From the IMG/VR virus record IMGVR_UViG_3300016486_000533, positions 1 to 44,485 of that record: 44,485 nucleotides of DNA; one strand, 5' to 3'. Below the pieces are notes generated by a model, which saw only the letters and a list, made by a program, of their open reading frames with translations, did not search any database and was not told the DNA's origin. The stretch is from a virus. Shown here one piece after another: positions 39 to 44,485 of this stretch; position 1 is the first letter of the stretch, and every line of letters begins with the position of its first letter. Both the position numbers and the translations under genes were made by a program.

Positions 39-79
39 TGCTTCAGACGTTCCCGCGTTCCAAATCAGACGAGACACAC

Positions 80-334: not shown

Positions 335-370
335 AGGAGGTCTGGCTGGCAGCGGTCGCAGGCGCTTGAT

Positions 371-6160: not shown

Positions 6161-6473
6161 TTAGGATAGCGTCCTCAATCTCTGAAATCTTCGCTGCGTA
6201 CTCAGGATCGTCATAAAGCTTTGGAGCCACCTTCATAATGTAAATCATTGTGGTGTGGTCGGCGTAGTTAAACGCTCGAGCAATTTGTGGGAATGATTGA
6301 TTTGTGTGCTTCCGGCAAAGATACGCCGCGATATGACGTGGCTTAGCAATCTTCATCCGCTTCGTCTTCTTGGCCAGCGAACCTTTCGATAGGCCGAATG
6401 CCTCCTCGGTTGCGGCTATCACTGTCGCGCACAAAATTGCTTTCTTCGAGTTCTTTGAGAATGACTGTACCAT
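6153..6473 (-). CDS. stand-alone DnaA domain IV-like DNA-binding protein
   Basis: A 106-residue protein matching the C-terminal DNA-binding domain of DnaA: PRHIAAYLCRKHTNQSFPQI (45-64) and the DnaA-signature-like ADHTTMIY (71-78; DnaA has DHTTVIHA). No AAA+ domain is encoded next to it. It could bind DnaA boxes in the phage origin or compete with host DnaA at oriC. The ATG has an SD (AGGA, nine bases upstream) despite lying 131 bases inside the HNH gene. Alternative start: Met40, leaving only the domain core. Confidence 0.75.
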   Translation of the reverse strand: MVQSFSKNSKKAILCATVIAATEEAFGLSKGSLAKKTKRMKIAKPRHIAAYLCRKHTNQSFPQIARAFNYADHTTMIYIMKVAPKLYDDPEYAAKISEIEDAILNG

Positions 6474-30767: not shown

Positions 30768-31149
30768 GTTCCGGGCAATCAAAACCGAAGTTGACGGAAT
30801 TGTTTTTGACTCTAAACTAGAAGCTAAGAAATACCAAGAATTCAAACTTCTTGAAAAAGCAGGGCAGATTCAAGACTTACAGCTTCAGGTGAGGTATGAT
30901 CTTTGCGTAAACAACCAAAAGGTTTGCACTTACGTTGCAGACTTCGTGTTCGTAGAAAACGGAGCAACGGTAGTCTACGATGCGAAAGGTATGATACTCC
31001 CAGAATTCCGCCTGAAAGCGAAACTATTCAAGGCGATACACGGGTTTGATATTACGCTGTCTGACGGGATTGGTGCGACTGAGCGCCGGACAAAAGCCCG
31101 GAAAGCAAAAGCCCGGACTCCAAAGGTTTCGCTAACTCGTAATCGTTGA
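30739..31149 (+). CDS. DUF1064-like PD-(D/E)XK endonuclease
   Basis: A 136-residue protein with the DUF1064 pattern: TEVDGIVFDSKLEAKKYQEF, then LLEKAGQIQDLQLQVRYDL, YVADFVFVENGATVVYDAKG, with the Asp and Lys of a PD-(D/E)XK-like core. Such proteins are predicted structure-specific endonucleases in phages. The ATG at 30739 overlaps the membrane gene by 29 bases. The 3' end overlaps the convergent primase gene by 98 bases. Confidence 0.72.
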   Translation: MAHTFKKTNKFRAIKTEVDGIVFDSKLEAKKYQEFKLLEKAGQIQDLQLQVRYDLCVNNQKVCTYVADFVFVENGATVVYDAKGMILPEFRLKAKLFKAIHGFDITLSDGIGATERRTKARKAKARTPKVSLTRNR

Positions 31150-31951
31150 AGTCCATTCCCACGATTTGTGGCATTGCAAACGGCAATCCGATATCGCGAG
31201 AAACCTTGAGACCAGTTTTACTTGCATCATTGTCTGCCATGACGTGTGTAGCGTGTTTTGCAAGCGTTCTCATGTTTCCAGCACTGCCGGCACACGCCAC
31301 TCTCACAGAAAGCCCCAGGTTGCCCGCTGAGCGCATTATGCTCATTCCGGTGGCAATCCCTTCGCACAGTACTGTTTGCTCGCCAGCGCCCATCCAGACG
31401 GCTGATCCACCCAGCTTCCCGCCATACATAAAGCACTTTTTCCCATCTGGTGCAATAAACTCGATTGTGCGCAAGTCTCCAGCGTAATCCTTGAACGGCA
31501 GGACCAAAAGAGACGTGTCGGAAGACTCATCCCGCAATATCTTTGGGACTCTCATTATTTTGCTGAGCGCGTTGACTGTAATTGTGCTGGCTTTGGTTTC
31601 AGAGAATCCCTTTCGGGCCAAATACATGTGGCGCCTAGACTCAACATTGTTCCAAATCTTCGCGGCGTTAACGCGGCCATGCCATGCCCTGCGTTCTTCT
31701 TCGTGTTTCTGTTTTGCTATTGCTGCGTGGTCAACTTCTGTTTGTCTTGACTCAACGCCAAGTGAGTGAAGTATATCGACATACTCACAATTGCTTTTGT
31801 GGCACGTCATTAGCAGACGACCGCCGCGATCAGTAACCGATAGCGCAATCTGGTCTCGACGCTTCTCAGGCTGGCACACAGGGCATGGTAGTGTGCCATA
31901 GTTTCCATGCCACATGCCGCCATTGCTGGTTGTAACTTCCCTAGCGTTCAT
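31052..31951 (-). CDS. DNA primase, zinc-finger and TOPRIM
   Basis: A 299-residue primase. Residues about 21-58 hold a zinc ribbon (CPVC and CHKSNCEY). The TOPRIM domain includes TVLCEGIATGMSI (catalytic Glu) and HVMADNDASKTG (acidic DxDxS-like motif). It should make RNA primers for phage replication. No DnaB-type helicase domain is fused. The ATG at 31951 lies seven bases after the upstream stop; longer starts would overlap that gene heavily. Last gene of the leftward operon. Confidence 0.8.
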   Translation of the reverse strand: MNAREVTTSNGGMWHGNYGTLPCPVCQPEKRRDQIALSVTDRGGRLLMTCHKSNCEYVDILHSLGVESRQTEVDHAAIAKQKHEEERRAWHGRVNAAKIWNNVESRRHMYLARKGFSETKASTITVNALSKIMRVPKILRDESSDTSLLVLPFKDYAGDLRTIEFIAPDGKKCFMYGGKLGGSAVWMGAGEQTVLCEGIATGMSIMRSAGNLGLSVRVACAGSAGNMRTLAKHATHVMADNDASKTGLKVSRDIGLPFAMPQIVGMDFNDYELAKPLESGLLLSGLLSGAQSHQSRQTA

Positions 31952-31958
31952 GAGTTTT

Positions 31959-32216
31959 TCATCTGTGTGTGCGCACGGCTGGATTGCCGGCCATTCCGCA
32001 ATATCCAGTTTGCTCTGACCCGGATTCCTTATACTTATAGACGTAATGCGAGGTCCAGCGCCAAGCCATGCAGGCGGAGCCGATGCACGGATGCGGACCT
32101 GGCTCCGCGATGACCTCACCAGACAGGCCGTACTGACCTGGCTGACAAAACGTTTGCGGACACACTTTTGCCTTTGCCTCGTTTTCAGTGGTTAGTGTGG
32201 TTTCTAGGTCAATCAT
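31959..32216 (-). CDS. Cys-rich phage protein (CIGSACMAWRW)
   Basis: An 85-residue protein with VCPQTFC, CIGSACMAWRW and TGYCGMAG, giving several Cys that could bind zinc or iron-sulfur. Similar small Cys proteins are encoded beside primases in other phages, but function is unknown. Starts at 32216 after SD GGGAGG. It may work with the primase downstream. Confidence 0.6.
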   Translation of the reverse strand: MIDLETTLTTENEAKAKVCPQTFCQPGQYGLSGEVIAEPGPHPCIGSACMAWRWTSHYVYKYKESGSEQTGYCGMAGNPAVRTHR

Positions 32217-32235
32217 GTTTGCCTCCCAGCGTTTA

Positions 32236-33447
32236 TTACATGCCAATCATGGCTGGTGTTGACCGAATGCGGCCAGCTTCCCCAAGTGTCTCGTGATACG
32301 TTATCGCTTCGCAATACTGGTTGGACTTCCATCCTCCCCGCGTTGCGTATGCGTCGTTTGCAGCAAGCGTGCCATGTTGTTCAAGCGTTATGCCTGCAAA
32401 CTCTTGAACTCTGCGGTGGTGCTTGTCTCCGAAGTGAAGAACCCTGTAATGCGTATCGCCCCAGATATTCGGGTAGTGACTGGCAATGAAAAGCGCGGTG
32501 GAAGCGTCCAGGCCCTTCTTGTGGCCGTGGTGCCATGATAGCATATTCTGCCCAAACTGCATCGCGTAGTATGGATTCTCGCTTTCGATCATCTCCACGC
32601 GCGGTTCTTTTTCGTAAATCATCCGGAACATTGTCCGCATCATCAGCGATCCAAACAGGTCATGGTTGCCTTCTGCGATCAGGACGTAAACCTTCTTGTG
32701 CTTCTCCAGCGCCATATCAATAACTGAGCGCATTACGCGGCAGGCGGTGGCAACCATTTGACCGGGGCGACCCGACGCATCCAGGATATGACCGTGCGAT
32801 GGAGTGACAGCCGTAAGGCCGTCATAGTGCATCCAGTCACCTAATTGGGCGATGACGCATGAGTCTGCCGGCGGTGAGCGGCGCACCATGTCGGCAAAAC
32901 AGCCAGACAGTGTTTCTTCCGCAATGGACAAATCCCAATCCTGTCCGGATTCGCGACCCCATGCCAGCATACCAATGTGGCAATCTGTTAGGGTATATAC
33001 GTTGAGTAGTTCTTTGGTTGTGTTCTTTGGTGGTGGCATCGGCTTAAGTCTTGATACGCCCTCGCAGATTGTATCGACGATCTCGCGCGCCATCTCAATC
33101 ATCTGTTCGCGGTCTTGGCTAGACTTTACCCATTGCCCACGCACTTCGCCGTCTTTATCGTAATACGTCGAAACACCCTTGACGTTATACCCCGCTGGTA
33201 CCGTCCGCGTGTAGTCATGCTCTGGCGCCCAGCCCTGAGAAGCGGCTCGCGCCTTTACGATCCTATAAATCCTGCACACATATGATGGAGGAGCACCAGT
33301 GTCTTTGCTTGTCTGCGTTGAATTCTTTGTCTGCGCAAGACTTTCAAGTATTTCCTTTTGCCGGTCAGTCGCGGCGTATGGAAGTAAATCTAGCGCATCA
33401 CTAAAGTCCGCCCGCGATAGTGCGGTGGCACGTCCGGTACTGGTCAT
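32236..33447 (-). CDS. calcineurin-like metallophosphoesterase with N-terminal HTH
   Basis: A 403-residue protein. The N-terminal part has an HTH-like segment (TDRQKEILESLAQTKNSTQT). The phosphoesterase domain shows the metal motifs TDCHIGM, GDWMHYDG, EGNHD and WHHGHKKG. It may be an SbcD-like nuclease or nucleic-acid phosphatase. I chose the ATG at 33447 as the longer start overlaps the preceding gene. It sits in the replication operon, supporting a DNA-processing role. Confidence 0.75.
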   Translation of the reverse strand: MTSTGRATALSRADFSDALDLLPYAATDRQKEILESLAQTKNSTQTSKDTGAPPSYVCRIYRIVKARAASQGWAPEHDYTRTVPAGYNVKGVSTYYDKDGEVRGQWVKSSQDREQMIEMAREIVDTICEGVSRLKPMPPPKNTTKELLNVYTLTDCHIGMLAWGRESGQDWDLSIAEETLSGCFADMVRRSPPADSCVIAQLGDWMHYDGLTAVTPSHGHILDASGRPGQMVATACRVMRSVIDMALEKHKKVYVLIAEGNHDLFGSLMMRTMFRMIYEKEPRVEMIESENPYYAMQFGQNMLSWHHGHKKGLDASTALFIASHYPNIWGDTHYRVLHFGDKHHRRVQEFAGITLEQHGTLAANDAYATRGGWKSNQYCEAITYHETLGEAGRIRSTPAMIGM

Positions 33448-33469
33448 TTGAATATCCCTATAGACAAGA

Positions 33470-33697
33470 CTATTCGTCGTCGTCTTTGCTACGGCCAGGG
33501 CTTCCGAACGGGGCAAAAGGCCAAACTTGGTCCCGCTTTCTATGATCCAACGCCTCAATCATGCGCCAGAGTGTGTATATGATCGTTACAATACCGGCGG
33601 CGGCTGGAATCCAGGACATAAACACGGCAACTCCTGAAATTACGGCAACGCCGTCTCCGATTTCTTTCACTATATCTTCCACTTGATGATTTGTCAT
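33470..33697 (-). CDS. holin-like/T7-type small membrane protein
   Basis: A 75-residue protein with a hydrophobic pair of segments (GVAVISGVAVFMSWIPAAAG, then IVTIIYTLWRMIEAL) followed by a charged tail. This resembles T7-type (class II) holins. Its location in the leftward early operon is unusual for lysis, so another membrane role is possible. Start at 33697 is preferred; 33718 is an alternative. Confidence 0.5.
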   Translation of the reverse strand: MTNHQVEDIVKEIGDGVAVISGVAVFMSWIPAAAGIVTIIYTLWRMIEALDHRKRDQVWPFAPFGSPGRSKDDDE

Positions 33698-33749
33698 TGG
33701 ACTCTCTGACTTTGGCATGCGTGCAATATAGCGCAATAGTCCTTGAACA

Positions 33750-34064
33750 TCAATGGAGGTTGGGCTTCTCTTGCGGCACGTCGTCAATCACTTCTGTAGC
33801 CATAGTGTTGTACTGTCCCAGCGCCTGAATGCAAGCGTTCATCATCACAGGAAGGTGAACTGGCGCTACATCGTTAGAGATTGCTTGGCACACGCGCATG
33901 ACAGCGTTTCCCATGATAGAATGCATGAGACTGTTGTTTGCCTCAATCGTCGTGTCTGCCACGAATGCCGGCATCGCCTTGCGCAGTAGGTGCACAAGTT
34001 TCTTTGTGGTGTCAGTGATCTCCTGCATTTCTGCATCCGTCACAACATGCTTAATCATGTCCAT
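33750..34064 (-). CDS. unknown helical phage protein
   Basis: A 104-residue protein, helical and Met-rich (LMHSIMGNAVMRVCQAISND). No recognised family. Its ATG overlaps the upstream stop (TAATG), so it is translationally coupled. It lies upstream of the phosphoesterase. Confidence 0.55.
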   Translation of the reverse strand: MDMIKHVVTDAEMQEITDTTKKLVHLLRKAMPAFVADTTIEANNSLMHSIMGNAVMRVCQAISNDVAPVHLPVMMNACIQALGQYNTMATEVIDDVPQEKPNLH

Positions 34065-34246
34065 TATAGAATATCCTCGCTAATTGCCTTGAAGAGATTG
34101 ATTATCGCTTCTTCTTTGGTCTCACCCCATCCGACGGGAGCGCCTTCGCCAAAATCCAGTTGTGCACTCCAGTCATGCCCACGCTCAGGTATTGGCGGGC
34201 GAACATGATCCAGGTAAACTTTCACTACGTTGTATTCTAGAGTCAT
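34064..34246 (-). CDS. small conserved phage protein
   Basis: A 60-residue protein with a GWGETKEEAIINLFKAI helix at the end, a pattern typical of small phage proteins with a HicB-like half-fold. A HicB-type antitoxin is not claimed, since no HicA partner is adjacent. Coupled to the next gene by TAATG. Confidence 0.55.
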   Translation of the reverse strand: MTLEYNVVKVYLDHVRPPIPERGHDWSAQLDFGEGAPVGWGETKEEAIINLFKAISEDIL

Positions 34247-34269
34247 CTTGCACCTACTTGCTGAATTAT

Positions 34270-34300
34270 GGGGAGTGATGCAATAAGCGCGCCACTCCCC
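34270..34300. promoter_or_regulatory. perfect 8-bp hairpin in operon gap
   Basis: GGGGAGTG (34270-34277) and CACTCCCC (34293-34300), loop 15 bases, lies between the Erf-like gene and the next leftward gene. No T-tract follows on the minus strand, so it is more likely an RNA-processing or attenuation element than a full terminator. Confidence 0.4.
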
Positions 34301-34306
34301 GGTAAA

Positions 34307-35017
34307 TTACTCTGCGTTCTGCGCGTAGATTGCGTTCATGCGCTTGACCATTGCGGCGGCGGCTGGAACGTGCGCGTAGTCATTCTTGATGCGCTTCATG
34401 CGCGGGTTAATGTCTTGGTCGCCCTCATACATGAATAGTTGCTCAGCGGTGGGCTCTGTGTCCAAGTATTCATTGACCTTCGCCACGAATTCCAGAACTG
34501 GCTTCAGCTTGGTTGCATCGTTGGATTGAGCCTTGTCTGACTTCTTGCCTGCCTTTGGTGGAAGCGTGTCGCCAGTGTTATCCTGCTCATCTGCATCATG
34601 TTCGCCGGTAGGAACCTTAAACAGATTGCGGATGAAATACTTGGTAACGAATGACTCAGCCGACGCATAGGCTTGTGGGCCAGCAGCGACAACCGCAACG
34701 TCGCGGCGCAGTGGTCCGTATGTGTCGCCAGACTCGTGAACCAGGTAGATATCAAACGTGGTATGCAACTGATTGCCTCCACGCTCACCTTCCGCTGGCT
34801 TGATGATCTCGGAGTCCGTCATGTTCGCCATAGTGAACAGGCCAGCTTCCGCCATCATGGGTCCGACAACTTCATAAAATTTGTCAACCGAAGTAAAGTT
34901 ATACCCGCCGTGCTTGTTGTTGCCGTCTTTGCCCAGGCGCTTGACGCCAGAGGCAACCTTGATAACTGCCGCTGCGATATTGCCCGACATTGCGATTGTT
35001 TGTGTTTGGTCAGTCAT
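34307..35017 (-). CDS. erf: ERF-family single-strand annealing protein
   Basis: A 236-residue protein with the ERF pattern YNFTSVDKFYEVVGPMMAEA and QAYASAESFVTKYFIRNLFK followed by VPTGEHDADEQD. ERF proteins anneal single strands and circularise terminally redundant phage DNA, as in P22. It overlaps the helicase stop (ATGA) and has SD GGAG. With the YqaJ exonuclease two genes upstream it forms an exonuclease-annealase pair. Confidence 0.85.
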   Translation of the reverse strand: MTDQTQTIAMSGNIAAAVIKVASGVKRLGKDGNNKHGGYNFTSVDKFYEVVGPMMAEAGLFTMANMTDSEIIKPAEGERGGNQLHTTFDIYLVHESGDTYGPLRRDVAVVAAGPQAYASAESFVTKYFIRNLFKVPTGEHDADEQDNTGDTLPPKAGKKSDKAQSNDATKLKPVLEFVAKVNEYLDTEPTAEQLFMYEGDQDINPRMKRIKNDYAHVPAAAAMVKRMNAIYAQNAE

Positions 35018-36522
35018 GTTTTTCTCCGCTGTGCTGATTTGATATACTTGATAGTTCTGTGTGTGACCCATGATGAAACGTTTGGCGCCGGGCAATCCAG
35101 CGATGCATTATGTAGGCCAAAACTGTTAGGCCAGTCTCCGAATTTCTCCTTAAACTGTACTCCCGCCCATCCTTCCTTGTACTGCCTCTGGTCCCGAATC
35201 GCCAATAGTGATGAATACCATTCTTGCATATCCTCAAGTCTATGCAACTTATCTTTTATTTTTTGTGGAGTATTGGCCGCAATTCCCGTCCGCATTACCT
35301 CACGCAATTCCCCATCCTGTTCCGCAACAGAAGGCGGTGGTGCCGGCATGAACCCGCAAGCCGGGCAGGCCCTAATGCGCGGTTGACGCATGGCGCCACA
35401 TTTCGCACACTTCTTAGGTTCCTGAGTCTCCCGGTCTGCCTTCTCACGTTCCGCCTTATCCGCCTTGGTGCCGTCATCAAGCGAGTTATAATGGATATCG
35501 TAGGGGTGTCCCAGGCTTTGGTTTCCGGCGCAATCCAGCAACAGGCAATCTTCCTGCCCAGGATGCAGGCGCAATCCGCGACCAATGCCCTGAACCCAAA
35601 GCATCTTTGACTTCGTTTTGCGTGCAAACAATATGCAATTCACGAAGGTCCAATCGAGTCCAGCTATGAGGCAACCAACAGAAACACACACTTTTGCGTC
35701 GCCGCGCTCCATCTTCTTGCCAATTTCCGTGCGCTCCTCTGCTGTTGTGTTGGCGTCGATATACTCACACTGAACGCCGCACATAAGAAAGCGTTGCTGC
35801 ATGTCCATTGCGTGCGCCCTGTCAACGCAGAAAGCGATAGTGGATCTCCCGTTGGCGTGTTCAAGCCATTGCTTCACGGTATCTGCGAGAATAGTTGTCT
35901 TGCGCGATGCGGTGGACAGCTCGCCCTCGTGGTAATCGCCGGCGACCATGCGAACGCCAGCGGTATCAATCTCTATAGGCGCAAGGTATCGCAGCGGCTT
36001 AAGCCATCCGCCTTCAACCATCTCGCCCAACCTGCCAGCAATAAGCAGCTTGTTCCAGTGCTTGCCCATGCCGCGCGCCCACGGTGTAGCAGTGAGTCCA
36101 ATGAACGGCACGTCTTTCCAGGCGGGCTTATTCATCCACTTGTAGACAAAATCATACTGCATGTGCGCTTCGTCGATAAACACAGTGTCAACCATCGGAA
36201 TTGCGCGGCGTGCCAGTGTTTGCACCGAGCATACCTGCACTGGCCGGTGTGGTGCTGTCATAGGGTGATTAGCTTGCAGGACTCCAACGTCCCGTATTCC
36301 ATATTCGTAGAACCTTTCGACGGTCTGATCTATCAATGAAAGGGCGGGTGCAGCAAAGATAGTGCGCTTACTGGAATCCAGGTCACGCAATATCTTCTCA
36401 GCAGCGAAGGCGGTTTTGCCCCATCCGGTAGGCGCTTGTATAACAATACGCCGCTCGAAAAAGTCCAATTCCGCCTCTAATTCATCGCTTGCTTTCTGCT
36501 GGTGTTCACGCAGCGTAACCAC
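35014..36522 (-). CDS. SF2 DEAD/DEAH-type helicase
   Basis: A 502-residue helicase. Walker A PTGWGKT (31-37), DEAH (117-120), motif III TAT (144-146) and motif VI QGIGRGLR (about 311-318). A zinc ribbon (CAKCG and CPACG, about 370-390) follows the helicase core. Likely unwinds DNA in replication or recombination. GTG start directly follows the exonuclease stop. Confidence 0.87.
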   Translation of the reverse strand: MVTLREHQQKASDELEAELDFFERRIVIQAPTGWGKTAFAAEKILRDLDSSKRTIFAAPALSLIDQTVERFYEYGIRDVGVLQANHPMTAPHRPVQVCSVQTLARRAIPMVDTVFIDEAHMQYDFVYKWMNKPAWKDVPFIGLTATPWARGMGKHWNKLLIAGRLGEMVEGGWLKPLRYLAPIEIDTAGVRMVAGDYHEGELSTASRKTTILADTVKQWLEHANGRSTIAFCVDRAHAMDMQQRFLMCGVQCEYIDANTTAEERTEIGKKMERGDAKVCVSVGCLIAGLDWTFVNCILFARKTKSKMLWVQGIGRGLRLHPGQEDCLLLDCAGNQSLGHPYDIHYNSLDDGTKADKAEREKADRETQEPKKCAKCGAMRQPRIRACPACGFMPAPPPSVAEQDGELREVMRTGIAANTPQKIKDKLHRLEDMQEWYSSLLAIRDQRQYKEGWAGVQFKEKFGDWPNSFGLHNASLDCPAPNVSSWVTHRTIKYIKSAQRRKT

Positions 36523-37362
36523 TTACGCAACAAAGATTCGGATTGAGCCGCGCTTGTCTCGTTTCAGCATGAGGCCATAGCCTTCAGCCTTGCCAACATC
36601 AGACTCCATAAGATTCTTTAGGCCTGACGCCGCAGAGTCGAACATGCTGGCCGCTTCTTTGTTGCCAAGATACGTCACCGCAGCGTCCTTGAAAGCATTG
36701 TTGCCAGTCATGTCAACGTCGCGGAGTTCCTTGACTACTGCCTCGGCCTTGATTGATTCAATGGGTCCAGGCGACCGGCCTTCTTGCACGCTTTCCCAGA
36801 ATGCACGTTCAATCTCAGATAGTGCGTCCTGATAGAACGGATCAGCGTCAACAACACACGAGCCCCAGCCGCTATTGTCGAACAGCACGCTAATGACGGC
36901 CTGCTTTCGCTCCGTAACCATCATATTATGCTGCAACTGTGGGTAGTAAGTTTCTCGCACTGTGTCGATAGTACGTTTCGCTTTGGCGCCGAAGTCATAA
37001 CCGCCAGTGTGCTTGGCTTCCCAGATTGCCGCGCCATCCATGCATAGGCCGTCTAGCGTTGCGTGCATTGGATACGCGAAGGCGTCGCTGCGAACGATCT
37101 TTTGCATATCCGTAACCGCGTCGCCAGTCTTGCTTGCGTACCATGCTGCGTTTAGTTCTTCCGTTGCCGTACCCATAAGCATATTTAGAGTCGGCTCCTT
37201 GTGCTTGACGCCAAGCCCGCTTTTCTGTTTCCATAGGTCATAAATCCAGTCCGCGTTGCCGCTCATAAGCGTGTTAGCGTCACTGCCACCGATTGATAGT
37301 GTGCGCGCCGCAATGTCTTCATCAGACATAATGAAGGCGCTAAGTGGGTTTGCCTGTGTCAT
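36523..37362 (-). CDS. YqaJ/lambda-type exonuclease
   Basis: A 279-residue PD-(D/E)XK nuclease. GGSDA (25-29), TEEL (Glu68/69), Asp104 in MHATLDG, and Glu115-x-Lys117 in WEAKHTG are the expected active-site residues; YYPQLQHNMMV fits the YqaJ Q-x-x-H helix. It should resect dsDNA ends to give 3' tails for the ERF annealase. Starts right after the upstream stop. Confidence 0.87.
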   Translation of the reverse strand: MTQANPLSAFIMSDEDIAARTLSIGGSDANTLMSGNADWIYDLWKQKSGLGVKHKEPTLNMLMGTATEELNAAWYASKTGDAVTDMQKIVRSDAFAYPMHATLDGLCMDGAAIWEAKHTGGYDFGAKAKRTIDTVRETYYPQLQHNMMVTERKQAVISVLFDNSGWGSCVVDADPFYQDALSEIERAFWESVQEGRSPGPIESIKAEAVVKELRDVDMTGNNAFKDAAVTYLGNKEAASMFDSAASGLKNLMESDVGKAEGYGLMLKRDKRGSIRIFVA

Positions 37363-37635
37363 CTATAGTGCTCCTTTAAGTTTGCCTGTGGCTATTTTCG
37401 TCAGTTCAACCATAAGCCGCCCTGTGTCATCCAGGTGCAATTCGTTTGCATCATCAAACCATCCGTAAGATTCACAGATTGACTCCGCAATATAAATCTT
37501 AGCGTCATGATTCTTGATAACGTCAAATAGGACTCTGATCGCATTCGACTCCTCTTGAGTTAGACAGTTATTAGCTTCAATCGCTAACTCAACCGACTCC
37601 GCTGGAGTCGGGTCATCTTTATATCCATGTAACAC
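37363..37635 (-). CDS. unknown phage protein
   Basis: A 90-residue acidic helical protein (starts VLHGYKDDPTPAES as GTG). SD GGGAG is eight bases before the GTG at 37635; the ATG at 37680 would overlap the SSB gene and has no SD. No family recognised. It lies between SSB and the exonuclease. Confidence 0.55.
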   Translation of the reverse strand: MLHGYKDDPTPAESVELAIEANNCLTQEESNAIRVLFDVIKNHDAKIYIAESICESYGWFDDANELHLDDTGRLMVELTKIATGKLKGAL

Positions 37636-37660
37636 GTTATAAACTCCCGTTTTGGTGTTG

Positions 37661-38068
37661 CTAGAATGGCATCTCATCATTTAGCGGCTCGGACTGGTCA
37701 AAAGATTGACCGCCACCGCCACCGTTGCCTTGACCACGCTTTGGAGCGTCAACGAGTCCTGATATCGTTTGCACGCGGCATTCGATATTTTCTCGCTTGT
37801 TGCCGTCCTTGTCTGTCCAGGCGCTTGTTTCCAATGACCCAGAGATAACAACGGAGTCGCCCTTGCTTAGTGTTGCGGCAATGTCTGACTCTCGGCCCCA
37901 TGCGTTGCACCGAATAAACGTCGTAACGTCAACCCATTGTTCCGTGCGCTTGTCTTTATAGCTGCGATTAAGTGCCAGGCTAAGCCCTGTAACGGATGAT
38001 CCGCCAGCGGCGCGGGTTTCTGGGTCACGCGTGAGGCGACCGATAGCGTTAAACTGATTAAGTGACAT
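37661..38068 (-). CDS. ssb: single-stranded DNA-binding protein
   Basis: A 135-residue SSB: OB-fold start MSLNQFNAIGRLTRDPETR, LSLALNRSYKDK, FIRCNAWGRESDIAA, then a Gly-rich linker and the acidic tip DEMPF (host SSBs end DDIPF). It coats ssDNA and recruits replisome partners through the tip. The ATG at 38068 has SD GGAG seven bases upstream. The frame is open upstream to 38350, so a 229-residue fusion is possible. Confidence 0.88.
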   Translation of the reverse strand: MSLNQFNAIGRLTRDPETRAAGGSSVTGLSLALNRSYKDKRTEQWVDVTTFIRCNAWGRESDIAATLSKGDSVVISGSLETSAWTDKDGNKRENIECRVQTISGLVDAPKRGQGNGGGGGQSFDQSEPLNDEMPF

Positions 38069-38350
38069 ATTAGACTCCTGCTGTTTGTTGTTTAGGCCCG
38101 CTGCAATTTCTATGCCTGATCCTGCGTGATACACTGACGACTCATCAAACCAATCAGAGTCATAGTCCGCCTCAATAAACGTTGACGTTGGACTCGTCAG
38201 AACAGTAAACGCCTTGTAGCGCATTATCCTGCTTGCCGATAGGTATTTAAATATGGACTCAATGGACTCGTCGTATATCCCGGCGAATCCCATCGCCCAT
38301 AGCATTGCATGGCTGGCGTTGCCATTGATAGTTCCGTAAGCGTATTTCAT
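38069..38350 (-). CDS. 94-codon ORF open into ssb, unknown
   Basis: Starts MKYAYGTINGNASHAMLWAM at an ATG overlapping the pentapeptide gene stop (ATGA), so it looks genuinely translated. It has no stop before the ssb start and would give an N-terminal extension of SSB. The last part (AAGLNNKQQESN) is low-complexity. Either it is a fusion, or the original stop was lost. Function unknown. Confidence 0.5.
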
Positions 38351-39054
38351 GCCGCATCCCTCCGCAGAGCAGTCGCAGCCCCTTCGATAAAGCCCAAGAT
38401 CCGCAACGCCTCAGCGCGGTAACGCTCGGCTGTCACCGTCTGGCAATGCTCGCGGACCTGCTCAATTGCATCCTCACCAATCCATCTGCGGCACCCCGCT
38501 TTAATGACCAGGCCGCCGAGAATTGAGGACCACGCGAAATATTCGTGACCGTCCAAGCGGGTGGCGCGAGCGAGCAAAATTAGTCCGCTCAGACCGGCGC
38601 CGCGCAGATCGGCACGGCTCAGATCAGCACGGCTCAGATCAGCACCATACAGACCGGCACCGCGCAGATCAGCACCGTACAGACCGGCACCGCGTAGACT
38701 GGCACCGCGCAGATCAGCACCGCACAGATCGGCATTGCACATACTGGCACCGCTCAGATCAGCACCGCTCAGATCGATATTGCTTAGATCAGCACCGCGC
38801 AGATAGGCACCGCTCAGATCAGCACCGCGCAGATTGGAATTGCTCAGATCAGCACCTCGCAGATCGGTTCCGCGCAGATAGGCACGGCTCAGATCAGCAC
38901 CGTACAGATCTGCACCGCGCAGATTGGCAACGCGCAGATAGGCGGTCTTTACAGCCAGCCCCAGCTTTACGCGCCAGTCTACGCTTTCATCGCAATCGAT
39001 TTCAGCCGTGTACTGTGCCTCTTGCGTCCATCTGTTTTTGATTTCGTATTTCAT
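38347..39054 (-). CDS. pentapeptide-repeat protein
   Basis: A 235-residue protein with about 25 A(D/N)LxG-type pentapeptide units (residues about 43-160), forming a right-handed beta-helix. Such proteins can mimic DNA and bind gyrase or topoisomerase; phage roles are unknown. The C-terminal 75 residues form a helical cap (WIGEDAIEQVREH). DNA is correspondingly repetitive (about 38590-38940). Coupled to neighbours on both sides by ATGA overlaps. Confidence 0.87.
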   Translation of the reverse strand: MKYEIKNRWTQEAQYTAEIDCDESVDWRVKLGLAVKTAYLRVANLRGADLYGADLSRAYLRGTDLRGADLSNSNLRGADLSGAYLRGADLSNIDLSGADLSGASMCNADLCGADLRGASLRGAGLYGADLRGAGLYGADLSRADLSRADLRGAGLSGLILLARATRLDGHEYFAWSSILGGLVIKAGCRRWIGEDAIEQVREHCQTVTAERYRAEALRILGFIEGAATALRRDAA

Positions 39055-39194
39055 TTTTTGCCCTTTCCAGGTTCGGCCTGTTCCTTCATTGCAGATTGCA
39101 GCAATTCGTGAGGCGTGGGGCTTGGCTTCCTAAACCATCGCCCAATTAGTCTTGGTTTTGCGTCGTTGAATAGCATGGTCAGGATCCTTTTCAT
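39051..39194 (-). CDS. 47-residue coupled small protein
   Basis: A basic protein starting MKRILTMLFNDAKPRLIGRW. Its ATG overlaps the upstream stop (TAATG) and its TGA overlaps the pentapeptide ATG (ATGA), which strongly supports translation. No domain recognised. Confidence 0.6.
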   Translation of the reverse strand: MKRILTMLFNDAKPRLIGRWFRKPSPTPHELLQSAMKEQAEPGKGKK

Positions 39195-39721
39195 TAGTAT
39201 TCTTCAAACGCGTCTATAAGGTCTTGCATATTGGAGTCACCAATACCGTTGCGCATCTTTAGTGAATTGGCCATAGCAGCGCGATATACGGACTCGCCAT
39301 TGCGCGAGTCGGAGTCATATCCATAGTCATCCGCCCAATCTTCAAAGCAATTATAATTCAGGACGTTATAATCCATTACAAGAGAATACATAACGTCAAG
39401 TATTTTTGGAACAATTAGCGCCCTACTTGGAACCATCCGCCCCGCGTAATTCATTGCCTTGCGCCCACTCTCGCATTCTATTTCAATTGCCTCCGCGTCG
39501 TAAACGCTAAGCGGGCCAAACTTAAATGATGGGCACTGATTAATTCCGGCACTGTATTCCGTTGAAAATACAGAGTCTCCGTGACGCGTGAGGGTAACGA
39601 CCCAATTCAGACTCTTGTGACGCGAATCCTTGTTGCGCGACTCGCTGAACGGAATAAAACTATACGATAAATCGACTCCCAGAGCGTCAATTAGTGCGAT
39701 GATTTCTTGATTATTTGACAT
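39194..39721 (-). CDS. conserved phage protein (FEDWADDYGYDSDSR)
   Basis: A 175-residue protein. The pattern LNWVVTLTRHGDSV, then a DV-x-YSLVMDYNVL segment and FEDWADDYGYDSDSRNGESV, is widespread in phage proteins of unknown function and is usually near replication genes. No catalytic motif is evident. Function unknown. Confidence 0.65.
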   Translation of the reverse strand: MSNNQEIIALIDALGVDLSYSFIPFSESRNKDSRHKSLNWVVTLTRHGDSVFSTEYSAGINQCPSFKFGPLSVYDAEAIEIECESGRKAMNYAGRMVPSRALIVPKILDVMYSLVMDYNVLNYNCFEDWADDYGYDSDSRNGESVYRAAMANSLKMRNGIGDSNMQDLIDAFEEY

Positions 39722-39757
39722 CAGATTGATTCCTTTGTTTGTGGTGTGTTTGTTTGT

Positions 39758-40711
39758 CTAAACTCGCAGAGGCATGAGGACTCCAATTAGTCCCGGATCA
39801 TCCGGAAAGGATACGCGAATTGGGCTACTAGGATCAGTGATTGCGAATTCAAATCGTGCTGTTTTGTTTGACTTAGCGAGCGTTACCATATCTAGCAGAT
39901 ATTTTGGGTTTAATCCAAAAACGATAGGGTTTGCAGCATGAACTACAACGGGCCACTCAATGCTAAGCGGTGCAACGTCATCAGGGCGCATTGACAGCGT
40001 AGCGGAATCAATTGTGACTGATTTGCTGCGTTCCGAACCATACGTAGCAACACGCTTCGCGGCTTCCGCACACTCCGCCGCTGTTCCTACGAGCTTCATA
40101 TTGAATGGCCCCTTGGGAAACACGCGCGAATAGTCGGGGAACGTCCCATCAATAACCTTTGATGTGATTGACAGGCCACTAAGGCCGTCACTAAGGCGGA
40201 TCCTATTGCGCATATCGTCATATTGAAGAGTCCACGCGCCGCCTTTTATTTTGGCCAGAATCTCGACAGTCTTTCGCGGCATAATAAATGATGGAACGTT
40301 GCTAGGCTCGAATCCGGGAACGCTGTAGTGCAGCATGCGATGGCCGTCCGTGGATGTCACCTTGAGTCCGTCATTGAATTCAAAGTAAGCGCCGTTGAGA
40401 TAGTATCGAGTCTGTTCCTTGCTCACGGCTGTAATGATGCGCGCAAGAATCTCTTGAATACCGCCAATGTAAATTGTTTGCGTTGCCTCGAAAGCCAACG
40501 GGCAATATTGGTCGCTCGGTGGAACGCTGGCGGGAGTCTCACCCTTCGCGTTATAGAATCCATCTAGCTTATCCGTTGGCGCGATTATCTCAATATCGCA
40601 ATCCGTTGCGCGTGCCACACCGTCGCACACCATTACCAGAGATAGCACTGGAATCGTGCAACGCTTGTCGATTGCTTTAGCTACAATTTTGAATTGATCC
40701 GTCATGGTCAT
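39758..40711 (-). CDS. dnaN: DNA polymerase III beta clamp
   Basis: A 317-residue sliding clamp. TRYYLNGAYFEF, STDGHRMLHYSVP and KVIDGTFPDYSRVFP mark the first two domain boundaries, and GVLMPLRV is the typical clamp C-terminus. It is shorter than bacterial DnaN (about 370). It should tether a polymerase, yet no polymerase is encoded, so it probably works with host Pol III. The start shares a 45-bp translation-initiation repeat with the next gene upstream. Confidence 0.87.
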   Translation of the reverse strand: MTMTDQFKIVAKAIDKRCTIPVLSLVMVCDGVARATDCDIEIIAPTDKLDGFYNAKGETPASVPPSDQYCPLAFEATQTIYIGGIQEILARIITAVSKEQTRYYLNGAYFEFNDGLKVTSTDGHRMLHYSVPGFEPSNVPSFIMPRKTVEILAKIKGGAWTLQYDDMRNRIRLSDGLSGLSITSKVIDGTFPDYSRVFPKGPFNMKLVGTAAECAEAAKRVATYGSERSKSVTIDSATLSMRPDDVAPLSIEWPVVVHAANPIVFGLNPKYLLDMVTLAKSNKTARFEFAITDPSSPIRVSFPDDPGLIGVLMPLRV

Positions 40712-40971
40712 GTTTCCTTTGTTGTTGAATTTGTTATTTCACACTTGTGAACACGTCGCCAATTTGGTTTGGTGAATTCCCCTCATAGTCACGCACAACG
40801 TACACCGGCACACCTGCCGTGTTCATGTTGATGATACACATGGGAGTCTCATATCTGTTAGCTGTTTTCTGGGCGACAGATTGCGCGCGTTCAAGGGGAG
40901 TCCAATACTTATATTCTTTTGTGTTTGTCATGGTCATGTTTCCTTTGTTGTTGAATTTGTTATTTCACACT
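40701..40971. repeat. 45-bp direct repeats spanning translation starts
   Basis: Exact 45-bp copies at 40701-40745 and 40927-40971. Each covers, on the minus strand, a stop region, the SD AAAGGAAAC and the start MTMT of a gene (clamp and the 67-residue protein). Recombination between them would cleanly delete the small gene. Confidence 0.88.
40734..40937 (-). CDS. small phage protein, unknown
   Basis: A 67-residue protein (WTPLERAQSVAQKTANRYET, then a beta-rich C-terminus). It is bracketed by 45-bp direct repeats and shares its start signals with the clamp gene. No family recognised. Confidence 0.6.
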   Translation of the reverse strand: MTMTNTKEYKYWTPLERAQSVAQKTANRYETPMCIINMNTAGVPVYVVRDYEGNSPNQIGDVFTSVK

Positions 40972-40991
40972 ATTGACGCCCTGACAATAGC

Positions 40992-41558
40992 TTATTTGCG
41001 TTTATTTTCATTTGCCTCTAGTGCAATACCGATAGGGCAGGACTCTCGATTCCAATACGGAAGCGCATAGGCTTCATTGAGTCGCTCATTGACGTGCGTA
41101 ACCTGCAACGCTGTGAATAGGGCTTCATTGGACTCATCATCGCAAATAGTTTCCGGTGAGTCGTCGAAGTGAAACATTGAATTGTTAGCGTGGAGTCCCT
41201 GACAAAAGCGCCATACATCAAACACGCTTGAAATTGGCCGCGTAAGTGTATCGTCAAGCGTCATGGGCGACAGTGCCGAAACGATATCAGCCCATGAGTC
41301 GGACTCCATAACCACCTCAGCGAAGTTAGAGTGGAACGTGACGACCGTGAGGCAATAACGCTTGGCACATGAATACTCACGCTCCGCTGGATTCTTTTTC
41401 TCAACCCATAGCACAAGATAGTATGGACCGCCTATCGGGCGAATTGCGCAAGGGCATGTATCGTTATGCCATGAATTATCCGCGAAGCCGTCCGGCATTG
41501 GTGGCAATTCATCGCGCGTAAATTCCGGGAATTTCTGTAGTGCTTGTGACCAATTCAT
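40992..41558 (-). CDS. conserved phage protein, unknown
   Basis: A 188-residue protein starting MNWSQALQKFPEFTRDELPP, with the SWHNDTCPCAIRP region typical of a phage family of unknown function. I chose the ATG at 41558 (AAGGAAAC upstream). An operator-like palindrome lies at 41583-41601 in its leader. Confidence 0.6.
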   Translation of the reverse strand: MNWSQALQKFPEFTRDELPPMPDGFADNSWHNDTCPCAIRPIGGPYYLVLWVEKKNPAEREYSCAKRYCLTVVTFHSNFAEVVMESDSWADIVSALSPMTLDDTLTRPISSVFDVWRFCQGLHANNSMFHFDDSPETICDDESNEALFTALQVTHVNERLNEAYALPYWNRESCPIGIALEANENKRK

Positions 41559-41582
41559 TATGTAGTTTCCTTGTGTCAAAAT

Positions 41583-41601
41583 GTGTGCCATCCTGGGACA
41601 G
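41583..41601. promoter_or_regulatory. operator-like site, copy 1
   Basis: GTGTGC-CATCCTG-GGACAG, one of three related sites (others 42402-42420 and 42981-42999). The best copy is a perfect GTGTGC/GCACAC inverted repeat with a 7-base centre. Confidence 0.45.
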
Positions 41602-41637
41602 ATTCCCGGCGTTGTCTGAGTCGGTTTTTTTGGCGGT

Positions 41638-41940
41638 TTATTCGTAAGCGGTGAGACAGATTTGGGAGACTCCATTCTCGAGAATTGTGTGGCGCTCATA
41701 TTCTACGTTCGCGCCCTGATACACACTCACTGCAAATTGATTGCGCGTCATCTCTCCGTCACTGTCAAAAAACCGCACGGTTACGTCGTCAAGGCCATAT
41801 AGCGAGTCCTCTTCTTTCTTGGCGCCATTATGTAAAGCCTCATAAACAATACGGGCGACTCCAGCCTCGCCCGGACAGTCGAATTGAAGCGGGCCAAGCC
41901 ATGCGGACTCAACGTCTCTAACTGTTATGCGCTCGCTCAT
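41638..41940 (-). CDS. small phage protein, unknown
   Basis: A 100-residue acidic protein (starting MSERITVRDVESAWLGPLQF). The ATG overlaps the upstream stop (TAATG). No domain recognised; probably one of the small accessory proteins of the early operon. Confidence 0.58.
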   Translation of the reverse strand: MSERITVRDVESAWLGPLQFDCPGEAGVARIVYEALHNGAKKEEDSLYGLDDVTVRFFDSDGEMTRNQFAVSVYQGANVEYERHTILENGVSQICLTAYE

Positions 41941-42155
41941 TATTCTGACTCCTCAATACGTGCTAGGCTGTATTCAATTTCATACATGGACGCTATGTCT
42001 GACTCTGAAATCTCATAGGCGCTATGTGCAACCATATATTGGACTCTGTGTTCTACTTCATCCGTGAGCCATTCCACCGCGTCGTCCTCGCAATCGAATT
42101 GCGCTATAGTCGGATCCGGGTCCATATAGTCAATGTGATACGTGACTTTAAACAC
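41940..42155 (-). CDS. small phage protein, unknown
   Basis: A 71-residue acidic protein (FKVTYHIDYMDPDPTIAQFD, then WLTDEVEHRVQYMV). A similar pattern occurs in small phage proteins of unknown function. The GTG at 42155 overlaps the upstream TAG (TAGTG) and follows SD GGGAGG; the ATG at 42188 lies inside the upstream gene and is rejected. Confidence 0.58.
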   Translation of the reverse strand: MFKVTYHIDYMDPDPTIAQFDCEDDAVEWLTDEVEHRVQYMVAHSAYEISESDIASMYEIEYSLARIEESE

Positions 42156-42382
42156 TATACTAGTCCTCCCAAGGCCAGCTTGACGCATGTGTGATTATAG
42201 ATTCCGCCGTCCGGCGTGCGCTCGCCTTGCATCTCCTGCATGAAGTAGCGCGCCGCGACTCCAGCCTTGCCGTTGGCACGTTTCAGGCAATCAAGCCCGA
42301 AATGATATAGGGACTCGTCACTGCCAATCCATAGGGCAACGTTCCAAGCGTTTTTAGATTTATGGCCATTGTAACTAGGCAT
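42155..42382 (-). CDS. YNG-type conserved phage protein
   Basis: A 75-residue protein. MPSYNGHKSKNAWNVALWIG matches the widespread phage pattern YxGxxNxxTWNVALWI of unknown function. The ATG at 42382 has SD GGAG eight bases upstream and lies after an operator-like palindrome (42402-42420). Confidence 0.62.
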   Translation of the reverse strand: MPSYNGHKSKNAWNVALWIGSDESLYHFGLDCLKRANGKAGVAARYFMQEMQGERTPDGGIYNHTCVKLALGGLV

Positions 42383-42401
42383 GAGTAAGACTCCGTAGTG
42401 G

Positions 42402-42420
42402 GTGTGCCAGGATAGCACAC
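42402..42420. promoter_or_regulatory. operator-like palindrome overlapping a candidate -10
   Basis: GTGTGC-CAGGATA-GCACAC, perfect 6-bp arms. On the minus strand GTGTGCTATCCT looks like an extended -10, 20 bases before the gene at 42382, so a bound protein would block it. The promoter at 11-38 shares GTGTGCTAT. Confidence 0.5.
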
Positions 42421-42437
42421 TATTGGTTGGGGGTTGA

Positions 42438-42468
42438 GCGCCAAAAATTGCCGCCCTCATATTCACTG
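42438..42468 (-). repeat. 31-bp inverted repeat, left arm
   Basis: The reverse complement of this segment matches 43633-43663 at 30 of 31 bases. Each arm reads outward from the control region, toward the gene at 42382 and toward the rightward gene at 44131. Confidence 0.85.
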
Positions 42469-42541
42469 CTACACGTAGGGAAGGATAGAGAGGCTTACAT
42501 AGGAGATTGCCTAAGTGTTACCTGTCCTAATCCCATGCATA

Positions 42542-42712
42542 TCATTTTGATATCCTTTTGCCGAAGCGGCCTGTAGGCACTATTGGATTGATTGAGACAA
42601 AGCGAGTCGGTTGAACTGGCATTGAAACTGGCATTGATTCTCCAGTCCATTGCGAGCGAATGAAATCATCCGACGGCTTATACGATATGAGCGTATGGAT
42701 TGGCTTTGTCAT
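42542..42712 (-). CDS. 56-residue coupled small protein
   Basis: Starts MTKPIHTLISYKPSDDFIRS and includes a short internal repeat MPVSMPVQ. Its ATG overlaps the stop of the upstream gene (TAATG). No domain recognised. The gap 42383-42541 contains an operator-like site and one arm of the inverted repeat, but no other gene. Confidence 0.55.
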   Translation of the reverse strand: MTKPIHTLISYKPSDDFIRSQWTGESMPVSMPVQPTRFVSINPIVPTGRFGKRISK

Positions 42713-42873
42713 TAGTTAGACTCCGCTTCTTTGACGATACACTTACGCGAGCCATATCTAGCAGGCATGCCATGCTTAGCGCGATTGCACTCATTAGCGA
42801 AATGATTTGCCTGAGCGAGCGGCATTGGCCCATAAGTAAGGCCTGTCGATTTGCTATAAACGATATGTGTCAT
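42712..42873 (-). CDS. small phage protein, first gene of replication operon
   Basis: A 53-residue protein (THIVYSKSTGLTYGPMPLAQ, then CNRAKHGMPARYGSRKC), a pattern seen in small phage proteins of unknown function. SD GGAGAG is six bases before the ATG at 42873, and the promoter 42899-42932 lies directly upstream. Longer upstream starts overlap that promoter. Confidence 0.6.
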   Translation of the reverse strand: MTHIVYSKSTGLTYGPMPLAQANHFANECNRAKHGMPARYGSRKCIVKEAESN

Positions 42874-42898
42874 GCGTCTCTCCTTTGTTTCTATATAT

Positions 42899-42932
42899 AC
42901 AATATACGCCCCAAAGATTAACGTCAAGTTAA
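42899..42932 (-). promoter_or_regulatory. leftward early promoter with CtrA box around the -35
   Basis: Minus strand -35 TTGACG (42927-42922), 17-base spacer, -10 TATTGT (42904-42899). The -35 lies inside TTAA-CTTGACG-TTAA (42932-42918), a perfect CtrA consensus box. Transcription would start near 42892 and read the replication operon. Confidence 0.7.
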
Positions 42933-42980
42933 TTTCTGCAATTAATTCCTGCCTATCTGCATTTATTTCCACACGGCTGA

Positions 42981-42999
42981 CTGTCCCAGGATGGCACAC
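42981..42999. promoter_or_regulatory. operator-like site, copy 3
   Basis: CTGTCC-CAGGATG-GCACAC, related to the perfect palindrome at 42402-42420. It lies about 55 bases upstream of the early promoter. Confidence 0.45.
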
Positions 43000-43010
43000 T
43001 TTCTGGCATC

Positions 43011-43080
43011 CATATTGCATACCCAGCACGGATCCATATTGCATACCCAGCCCTTCATACATATTGCATACCCAGCACGC
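43011..43080. repeat. three iterons
   Basis: CATATTGCATACCCAGC occurs at 43011, 43035 and 43060, spaced 24-25 bp. Iteron-like spacing upstream of the leftward promoter suits an initiator or regulator binding array. Confidence 0.85.
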
Positions 43081-43191
43081 GCCAGCCCTTCACACTCTAT
43101 TAACCATGCCGCCCCCTCTGGCCTATGCTTAACAATGAATGAAGAGACTGCATCTAATTGCACCCATTCCATTAGCCCCTCACTAACCATA

Positions 43192-43222
43192 AATATACAC
43201 CACACATTTAACCATTGCTTAA
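43192..43222 (-). promoter_or_regulatory. second leftward promoter with CtrA box
   Basis: Minus strand -10 TATATT (43197-43192). At the -35 position is a CtrA box TTAA-GCAATGG-TTAA (43222-43208) in place of a consensus -35, as in activator-dependent promoters. Confidence 0.5.
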
Positions 43223-43337
43223 CCATTGATACCCAAACCATTAACCTTAACAGCCTCTTACCTTAAGGCTTTGTTAACCTTAACCAATGCTTACCTTGCT
43301 CAGTCAACCTTACTCTAATCTGTTAAGCTTTCGTTAA
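43208..43337. promoter_or_regulatory. cluster of CtrA-type boxes
   Basis: Perfect TTAA-N7-TTAA sites at 43208-43222 (N7 CCATTGC), 43263-43277 (GGCTTTG) and 43323-43337 (GCTTTCG), with half-sites TTAACCAT at 43100-43107 and within the first box. A fourth full box is at 42918-42932. Confidence 0.75.
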
Positions 43338-43398
43338 CTATAAAGGGGGGGGATGGTATTTGAGAAGAGGGCGGGGGGGCTTGCACCCATCTTTGTAA

Positions 43399-43480
43399 AT
43401 AAACCAAATTCTGAAAACTCCATTCCACAGTTGGGCTTGTCGCAGATAAACCAAATTCTGAAAACTCCATTCCACAGTTG
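43399..43480. repeat. 35-bp direct repeats
   Basis: Exact copies at 43399-43433 and 43446-43480 (period 47). Each contains ATTCCACAG, a weak match to the DnaA box TTATCCACA. Function unknown; may be origin-related. Confidence 0.85.
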
Positions 43481-43518
43481 ACCGATACTTCCATAATCTG
43501 CAAGTTGCCGGAACTATC

Positions 43519-43562
43519 CAGGCGTGAGACCTATCGGATGCGCTAACTGTAGTTCACGCCTG
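43519..43562. repeat. inverted repeat CAGGCGTGA/TCACGCCTG
   Basis: A perfect 9-bp inverted repeat (43519-43527, 43554-43562) with a 26-base loop in the control region; protein-binding site or RNA hairpin. Confidence 0.6.
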
Positions 43563-43632
43563 CATGTATTGTGTTTGGTACACCACGCCAGCGCATCAGG
43601 CTCATAGCGGTGTTATGTTCCCCTAGTAGTTT

Positions 43633-43663
43633 CAGTGAATATGAGGGCGGCAATTTCTGGCGC
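43633..43663 (+). repeat. 31-bp inverted repeat, right arm
   Basis: Partner of 42438-42468, with one mismatch. The two arms flank about 1.16 kb of the control region. Confidence 0.85.
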
Positions 43664-43737
43664 ATTGATCCGCACATCAACTCAGGTCGATAACATTATG
43701 AAAGTTAGTGACCACACTCATCGTTATCATTGTCCAT

Positions 43738-43749
43738 TGTCCATGGACA
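43738..43749. promoter_or_regulatory. 12-bp palindrome TGTCCATGGACA
   Basis: Perfect palindrome, preceded at 43731 by another TGTCCAT. Operator-like. Confidence 0.5.
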
Positions 43750-43823
43750 GTCTTAGTGTGATTCACGGCAATTTCCAGCCGGTTATGGCACGCATCCATC
43801 GTTTACAGGCAATGCATGGCCCA

Positions 43824-43902
43824 TCGACGTGCAAAGATTATCGCGTTTTCTTTACATGTCCCGACAACGTGCAAAGGAATCTCCGTTTTCTTTACATATC
43901 AT
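43824..43902. repeat. imperfect 38-bp duplication
   Basis: Two related units, each with CGTGCAAAG followed by CGTTTTCTTTACAT, precede the 16-bp tandem array. GACGTGCAAAG also occurs at 9920 in the candidate ncRNA. Confidence 0.6.
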
Positions 43903-43904
43903 TG

Positions 43905-43980
43905 TGATACATATCATATCTGATACATATCATATCTGATACATATCATTGTGATACATGTCATATGTGATACATTTATC
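43905..43980. repeat. 16-bp tandem operator-like array
   Basis: Units starting TGATACAT at 43905, 43921, 43937, 43952 and 43968. The core TGATA-CA-TATCA is an inverted repeat in the first three units. The array ends about 80 bases upstream of the rightward promoter at 44062-44089, suggesting cooperative regulator binding. Confidence 0.85.
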
Positions 43981-44061
43981 CCGCTCGGTAAATATCGGCC
44001 AGAAAGCGTAGTGACACTGCGTAAATGTCCCTATCGGTAAACCGGACACGCAACCGGGCGC

Positions 44062-44089
44062 TGGACAGCCGGAGACAGTGTGCTATAAA
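44062..44089 (+). promoter_or_regulatory. sigma70-type promoter (copy of 11-38)
   Basis: TGGACA, 16-base spacer, extended -10 TGC-TATAAA. In the circular genome this copy shows the true upstream context: the 16-bp tandem operator array ends about 80 bases before it. Confidence 0.65.
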
Positions 44090-44130
44090 TGCTTCAGACG
44101 TTCCCGCGTTCCAAATCAGACGAGACACAC

Positions 44131-44346
44131 ATGAACCCCTTCAAGAAGCTTAGCGATACAATGACCGGCGCAACACAGAAAAGCGGCATCGAGACACGCA
44201 AGCGCGGTGAGACTGACGCTGATCGCCGCAATCGTGAGAACCGTCTACGCGAGGAGCGTGAAGCTGCTGAGCGCAAGATGCGGGAAGAGGCTAAAGAGAA
44301 AGCCTGGCAGGCGGAGCGCAAGCGCCGGGGCTACGCGCCTAACTGA
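44131..44346 (+). CDS. small highly charged protein (copy of 80-295)
   Basis: Identical to the 71-residue gene at 80-295 because of the terminal redundancy. One gene in the circular genome. Here its control region is seen complete on the upstream side. Confidence 0.6.
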   Translation: MNPFKKLSDTMTGATQKSGIETRKRGETDADRRNRENRLREEREAAERKMREEAKEKAWQAERKRRGYAPN

Positions 44347-44421
44347 TTATCCCACAAATTAGAGTTTCGTAGTGTAGCGGGATAAAGGAGGTCTGGCTGG
44401 CAGCGGTCGCAGGCGCTTGAT

Positions 44422-44485
44422 TCAGCCATTGCACTCACCCCAATTCGCCTGACAGAGAGCCCCCTCCATGTCGAATATCCAATCG
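44422..44485 (-). CDS. PAPS-reductase-like gene, partial copy
   Basis: The last 21 codons of the gene at 371-1195, cut by the window end. Part of the terminal repeat, not a second gene. Confidence 0.85.
   Translation of the reverse strand, partial: DWIFDMEGALCQANWGECNG

Follow-up and report, generated by a model that had tools for sequence, protein, structure and literature searches.

CtrA is the cell-cycle response regulator of the host cell. Its control over phage genes is not new and has been published as 'lytic deferment', a term proposed by Mascolo et al. 2022, who found arrays of CtrA sites in several alphaproteobacterial phages unrelated to one another, located either in gaps or in terminal repeats, and proved both binding and regulation in three of these phages (PMC9437464). 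In that work, purified CtrA bound phage sites in EMSA and altered reporter expression, and the so-called 'LPEG' phages were marked by a normalised positional entropy, calculated from a PSSM, of <0.75 (PMC9437464). The pairing of a phage GcrA with CtrA sites is likewise known from phiCbK: GcrA was described in phiCbK-like phages by Gill et al. 2012 (PMC3556154), and sites have been lost and gained among relatives within this group (PMC9437464). For the phage Jorvik, a CtrA requirement and one predicted site are on record (PMC10589892).

Here, we describe a cluster of CtrA-like boxes in the IMG/VR record IMGVR_UViG_3300016486_000533, analysed over its whole stretch of 44,485 nt (the window). The most similar described array is that of the Brevundimonas phage vB_BsubS-Delta. 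Both phages have a TTAA-rich noncoding gap of ~1.2–1.3 kb with several perfect N7 boxes and half-sites, in both the gap adjoins a small unknown ORF (68 aa in Delta, 53 aa here), and in both the sites are strongly uneven across the genome (PMC9437464). Delta differs in being a siphophage with 12 perfect boxes and divergent flanking blocks, whereas the present phage has four perfect boxes, flanks that run in one direction and recognisable replication genes downstream, and belongs to another lineage. Caulobacter phiCbK also combines CtrA boxes upstream of early genes with a phage GcrA homolog (PMC3556154, PMC9437464), but it is a giant siphophage whose three perfect boxes are scattered over 10-kb terminal repeats and precede genes without a known function; we saw no relationship at the sequence level between phiCbK and the present phage. 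Rhizobium Pasto, likened here by description, is a podophage in which CtrA sites precede a replication gene (a phi29-type SSB), yet these sites lie in a direct terminal repeat (PMC9437464). Finally, Sphingomonas vB_StuS_MMDA13 shares a gap of ~1 kb in which direct repeats ending in TTAACCAT overlap CtrA sites (PMC9437464), but is a siphophage in which three putative sites precede a gene without a known function.

As the array features that could be scored recur in the window, the present phage is likely to be a further CtrA-array phage. What appears to be new is the lineage, which is unrelated and probably podovirus-like, and the placing of a putative box within the predicted promoter of a recognisable replication block.

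Genome organisation and phage-encoded proteins

An exact 434-bp repeat at both ends of the record (window 1–434 and 44052–44485) indicates a circular or circularly permuted phage genome of ~44,051 bp. Other IMG records yield near-identical contigs, one of them from metagenome 3300035698, which was sampled from Ace Lake, Antarctica (PMC8542988). Late genes, encoding terminase, portal, capsid and others, occupy 10.3 to 31 kb on the plus strand; judging from portal and terminase type, the phage is probably podovirus-like. Among the proteins scanned, a subset of those of the phage, no integrase was found.

The remaining genes lie largely in two leftward blocks on the minus strand. One, which includes GcrA, runs from 9.66 to 0.37 kb. 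The other (31052–42873) lies downstream of a predicted promoter termed P1 and encodes replication functions: DUF7249, the sliding clamp DnaN, a putative SSB assigned by sequence reading, a RecE-type exonuclease, a helicase, the annealing protein Erf, a phosphoesterase and a primase. Genes of this replication block are mostly tightly spaced or overlapping, with the exception of 329 nt between the first and the second gene, a space in which no terminator-like site was found. The first gene downstream of P1 (42712–42873, minus strand) encodes 53 aa without a Pfam match and begins with an ATG at 42873, preceded by the ribosome-binding site AAAGGAGAG.

The GcrA-family protein (150 aa; 4542–4994, minus strand) matches PF07750 with 39.8 bits, against a cut-off of 26.9, over positions 3–144 of the 155-position profile; a search for a matching solved structure returned none. 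GcrA proteins bind sigma-70 and promoters with methylated GANTC. Since there is no GANTC site within 42720–43759, the phage GcrA is not expected to act through GANTC at P1 or at the second predicted promoter, P2. This stretch is merely the third-longest GANTC-free gap of the genome, so no claim is drawn from the absence itself. Also on the minus strand are a phage HTH/sigma region 4-like protein (4157–4660; PF04545, 39.7 bits) and a DnaA domain IV protein (Bac_DnaA_C, 106 aa; 6153–6473; PF08299, 69.9 bits), the latter with distant matches in other phages and in a genome without a DnaA box cluster. The GcrA block further holds genes for a PAPS-reductase-like protein (371–1195) and an N6/N4 DNA methyltransferase of unassigned specificity (1927–2724), both leftward.

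The array lies in a noncoding gap of ~1.2 kb (42877–44051), which continues to a plus-strand gene at 44131, is richer in AT than any other part of the genome (44% GC in 43–44 kb) and is dense in TTAA. A gap between two divergent operons is ruled out, as the flanking gene blocks are both leftward and the sole plus-strand gene between them is the short one at 44131–44346. The gap also contains three 24-bp repeats (43007–43079), two 35-bp repeats and an TGATACAT/ATCAT repeat array (43893–43975). The length of the last varies: the near-identical contig G004 is short of one 16-bp unit. An inverted repeat of 50 nt (82%; 42438–42487 and 43614–43663), which includes GTGAATATGAGGGCGGCAAT, flanks the gap. 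In addition, a sequence of the type GTGTGC(C/T)ATCCTGG occurs three times near the replication block (42402–42420, 42983–43001 and 41583–41601), once as the palindrome GTGTGCCAGGATAGCACAC, and is a candidate operator of a phage regulator. No known RNA element reached the Rfam gathering scores anywhere in the window.

Four perfect boxes cluster in the gap

The first-pass annotation had counted four perfect TTAA-N7-TTAA boxes within 420 bp, where less than one would be expected by chance in the whole window, and this count holds: the whole 44-kb genome contains exactly four, all between 42918 and 43337, whereas dinucleotide shuffles of the whole window gave a mean of 0.48 and never reached four (0 of 100). 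All are exact matches. Box 1 (TTAA-CTTGACG-TTAA; 42918–42932, minus strand) overlaps the −35 of P1, while box 2 (43208–43222), which reads TTAACCAT-TGC-TTAACCAT on the plus strand, takes the position of the −35 of P2 when read on the minus strand. Box 3 (TTAAGGCTTTGTTAAC; 43263–43277) and box 4 (TTAAGCTTTCGTTAAC; 43323–43337) are on the plus strand, and box 4 shows the extended consensus on both strands. Four one-mismatch sites on the plus strand (43089–43294; starts at 43089, 43129, 43247 and 43280) join the perfect boxes inside the gap. On the plus strand, three of the four boxes extend to TTAA-N7-TTAAC, the CtrA consensus derived from ChIP-seq in Hyphomonas (PMC7200025), and six TTAACC half-sites share this orientation (43100–43285; at 43100, 43208, 43219, 43241, 43274 and 43280), compared to 0.24 expected.

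Because the gap is rich in TTAA, conditional tests were run. When 14 TTAA were placed at random over 42877–43345 (468 bp), at least four pairs 11 bp apart arose with P ~0.0004, and no more than two such pairs appeared in any of 20,000 dinucleotide shuffles of this region. Across 116 loci (1.44 Mb), a search for equally spaced TTAA pairs (at least three in 600 bp, spacings N1–N19) returned a single cluster, namely the N7 cluster described here. When one mismatch was tolerated, the genome had 18 N7 sites, of which 8 were located in the gap (0.48 expected); among the control spacings, the highest count was three. Throughout, CtrA sites were scored by consensus and half-sites in place of the published PSSM. 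The normalised positional entropy of the array was 0.675, below the 0.75 of PMC9437464; it refers to one-mismatch consensus sites, not to the PSSM hits used there, and none of 5,000 random placements was as low.

Predicted promoters and the sign of control

P1 (42899–42927, minus strand) precedes the first gene of the replication block by 45 nt. It is defined by consensus match only, with a −35 TTGACG (42927–42922), a spacer of 17 bp and a −10 TATTGT (42904–42899); a second, overlapping −10, TATATT (42906–42901), lies 11 nt from box 1. A scan for promoter-like matches lists this pair (42927/42899), but the region yields no more such matches than its shuffles do. At P2, the minus strand reads TTAAGCAATGGTTAA, then 10 nt, then the −10 TATATT (43197–43192). 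P2 has no −35 of its own; box 2 (43222–43208) stands in its place, such that the distance from box to TATATT is 10 nt, compared to 11 nt at P1. Both arrangements had been proposed from the initial reading, i.e. a box enclosing the −35 of a leftward promoter with TATTGT 17 bases on, and a second box replacing the −35 of a promoter with TATATT, and both were recovered at these positions. We infer that P1 and P2 are real promoters, and transcription from P1 may reach DnaN and beyond.

The best explanation for the array is that it consists of CtrA binding sites that time the replication block, a reading to which we assign a probability of about 0.72. CtrA~P would occupy the four boxes, and the intervening half-sites would probably contribute to cooperative binding. 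On box 1, it would cover approximately −40 to −26 of P1 and most likely shut this promoter until CtrA is cleared at the onset of S phase in the host. Repression is favoured here because P1 possesses its own TTGACG −35. At P2, CtrA would act as an activator, as this promoter has no −35 of its own. Whichever the sign of control, the replication genes would be timed by the CtrA state of the host. Caulobacter offers precedents for both modes: repression where a box overlaps a self-sufficient promoter (hemE Ps) or where upstream boxes add up (pilA), and activation from a −35 box (PMC11264516). Our view that CtrA represses P1 is a leaning, and we are much less sure of the sign of control than of binding.

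The boxes could instead bind CtrA as an activator at both promoters (class II, with the box over the −35), which would turn the replication genes on at high CtrA~P. This possibility, which we rate at somewhat below even odds, differs from the explanation above solely in the sign at P1. In most promoters that CtrA activates, a single box is found at −35 (PMC11264516); P2 is without a −35 of its own; and two phiCbK boxes, read by eye, are followed 10–11 nt downstream by −10-like hexamers much as at P1 and P2. Moreover, the phage promoters known from phiCbK (gp005, gp018) and Cp1R7A-A1 are activated by CtrA. However, the good TTGACG −35 of P1 lies inside the box with a 17-bp spacer, meaning that this promoter would need no CtrA and that bound CtrA would block it; pilA is repressed through multiple sites located upstream; and the most similar phage array, at gene 120 of vB_BsubS-Delta, is repressed.

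Host affiliation and conservation of the array

The host is probably an alphaproteobacterium from an Antarctic lake. A search of cellular genomes gave four terminase relatives, all of them alphaproteobacterial (two Rhodovibrionaceae MAGs, a Paracoccus MAG and Bradyrhizobium), and all four genomes carry GcrA; portal relatives were not found in cellular genomes. Among the matches listed, relatives of the sliding clamp came mostly from phages infecting Rhizobium, Sinorhizobium, Paracoccus and Aurantimonas; for RecE, the best relatives were from Bradyrhizobium and Pelagibacter phages. Together with the GcrA gene, the relatives of terminase, clamp and RecE point to Alphaproteobacteria. The terminase relatives in the phage collection count against such a host, the best-scoring among the matches listed being Vibrio and Escherichia phages with ~30% identity. 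The GcrA-likeness itself is no strict class marker, since PF07750 also passes its cut-off in the control Sulfolobus acidocaldarius, outside the Alphaproteobacteria.

The best relative spanning the gap is G008 (IMGVR 3300017716_002065; portal identity 61–62%), a genome of ~45.5 kb after its 123-bp end repeat. Its gene order matches that of the present phage, with the block of GcrA and HTH genes followed by the gap and then the replication block, and it encodes a GcrA-like protein that scores above the Pfam cut-off. The conservation of boxes in relatives, on which the first-pass annotation had made its proposal depend, stood only in part: the syntenic gap of G008 contains no perfect TTAA-N7-TTAA, whereas half-sites and one-mismatch sites are enriched there. 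Specifically, this gap holds 5 of the 18 TAACCA half-sites of the genome (0.11–0.45 expected) and 4 of its 9 one-mismatch boxes, compared to three at the control spacing N9 and two each at N8, N10 and N11. One of these boxes, TTATTGCTTTGTTAA (35824), is located ~67 nt before the gene that opens the early block of G008. Since the excess over the control spacings is small, conservation of the array in G008 is suggestive rather than firm.

Closer relatives do not cover the array. Contigs of the same species start at window ~43377 and ~43807, and the relative IMGVR 3300020203_000106, with a 72% helicase match, starts inside DnaN and so is without the gap. No DNA match to the gap was found in the phage collection, and among the 80 loci retrieved in the clamp search, none had two or more perfect boxes within 500 bp. 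Two contigs with the 24-bp repeat pattern, each with a single match and one CtrA-like box, were not taken as relatives; L005 (28% DnaN) was also rejected, its gene content being that of an unrelated prophage-like contig.

Alternative readings of the array

The first-pass annotation had interpreted the boxes as CtrA sites, and nothing found in the follow-up overturned this view. On the contrary, it is well supported by the N7 spacing, the extended consensus, the clustering of TTAACC half-sites, the GcrA gene and the alphaproteobacterial relatives, from which we infer that host CtrA binds the array.

It is also conceivable that the boxes are operator or origin iterons of a phage protein, either the HTH/sigma region 4-like or the DnaA domain IV protein, and that their likeness to CtrA sites is coincidental. 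The phage encodes both proteins, and the other repeats of the gap (the 24-bp repeat in three copies, the 35-bp repeat in two and the TGATACAT array) would fit a control or origin region. We regard this as unlikely: spacing and half-site match the published CtrA consensus TTAA-N7-TTAAC exactly, the gap is without a DnaA box cluster, and CtrA-like half-sites recur in G008 even though its HTH protein shares merely 33% identity over 75 aa with that of the present phage and a DnaA domain IV homologue was not found there. The HTH/sigma region 4-like protein is a possible phage-encoded competitor for the box array. Separately, DnaA boxes were rejected as the cause of the array, as they are not enriched (26 one-mismatch sites in the window vs 32 expected).

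The Caulobacter chromosome origin (Cori) is gated by CtrA. By analogy, the gap might combine a replication origin with the promoter region, with host CtrA gating phage replication itself and the phage GcrA and DnaA domain IV proteins lifting the block. Of the features expected of an origin, CtrA-like sites and repeats are present in the gap and a DnaA box cluster is absent, and we consider the idea a long shot; if true, the result would be a phage version of the CtrA-GcrA-DnaA switch.

That the boxes came together by chance, in a noncoding gap rich in AT and low in G, is highly improbable: TTAA is indeed dense in 43–44 kb, the most AT-rich part of the genome, but the conditional tests give P ~0.0004 with the number of TTAA kept and <1 in 20,000 with local dinucleotides kept, and no other spacing clusters.

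Implications for phage biology

If the array is read by CtrA, as we favour, the present phage would extend the small set of phages believed to sense the CtrA state of their host by an unrelated, probably podovirus-like lineage. Its boxes would be linked to replication genes that can be recognised as such, and not to genes of unknown function, and GcrA would co-occur with predicted CtrA sites outside the phiCbK group. This offers a clear test, namely whether phages of this kind hold back replication until S phase begins in the host. The phage may thus time its own replication by the cell cycle of its host.
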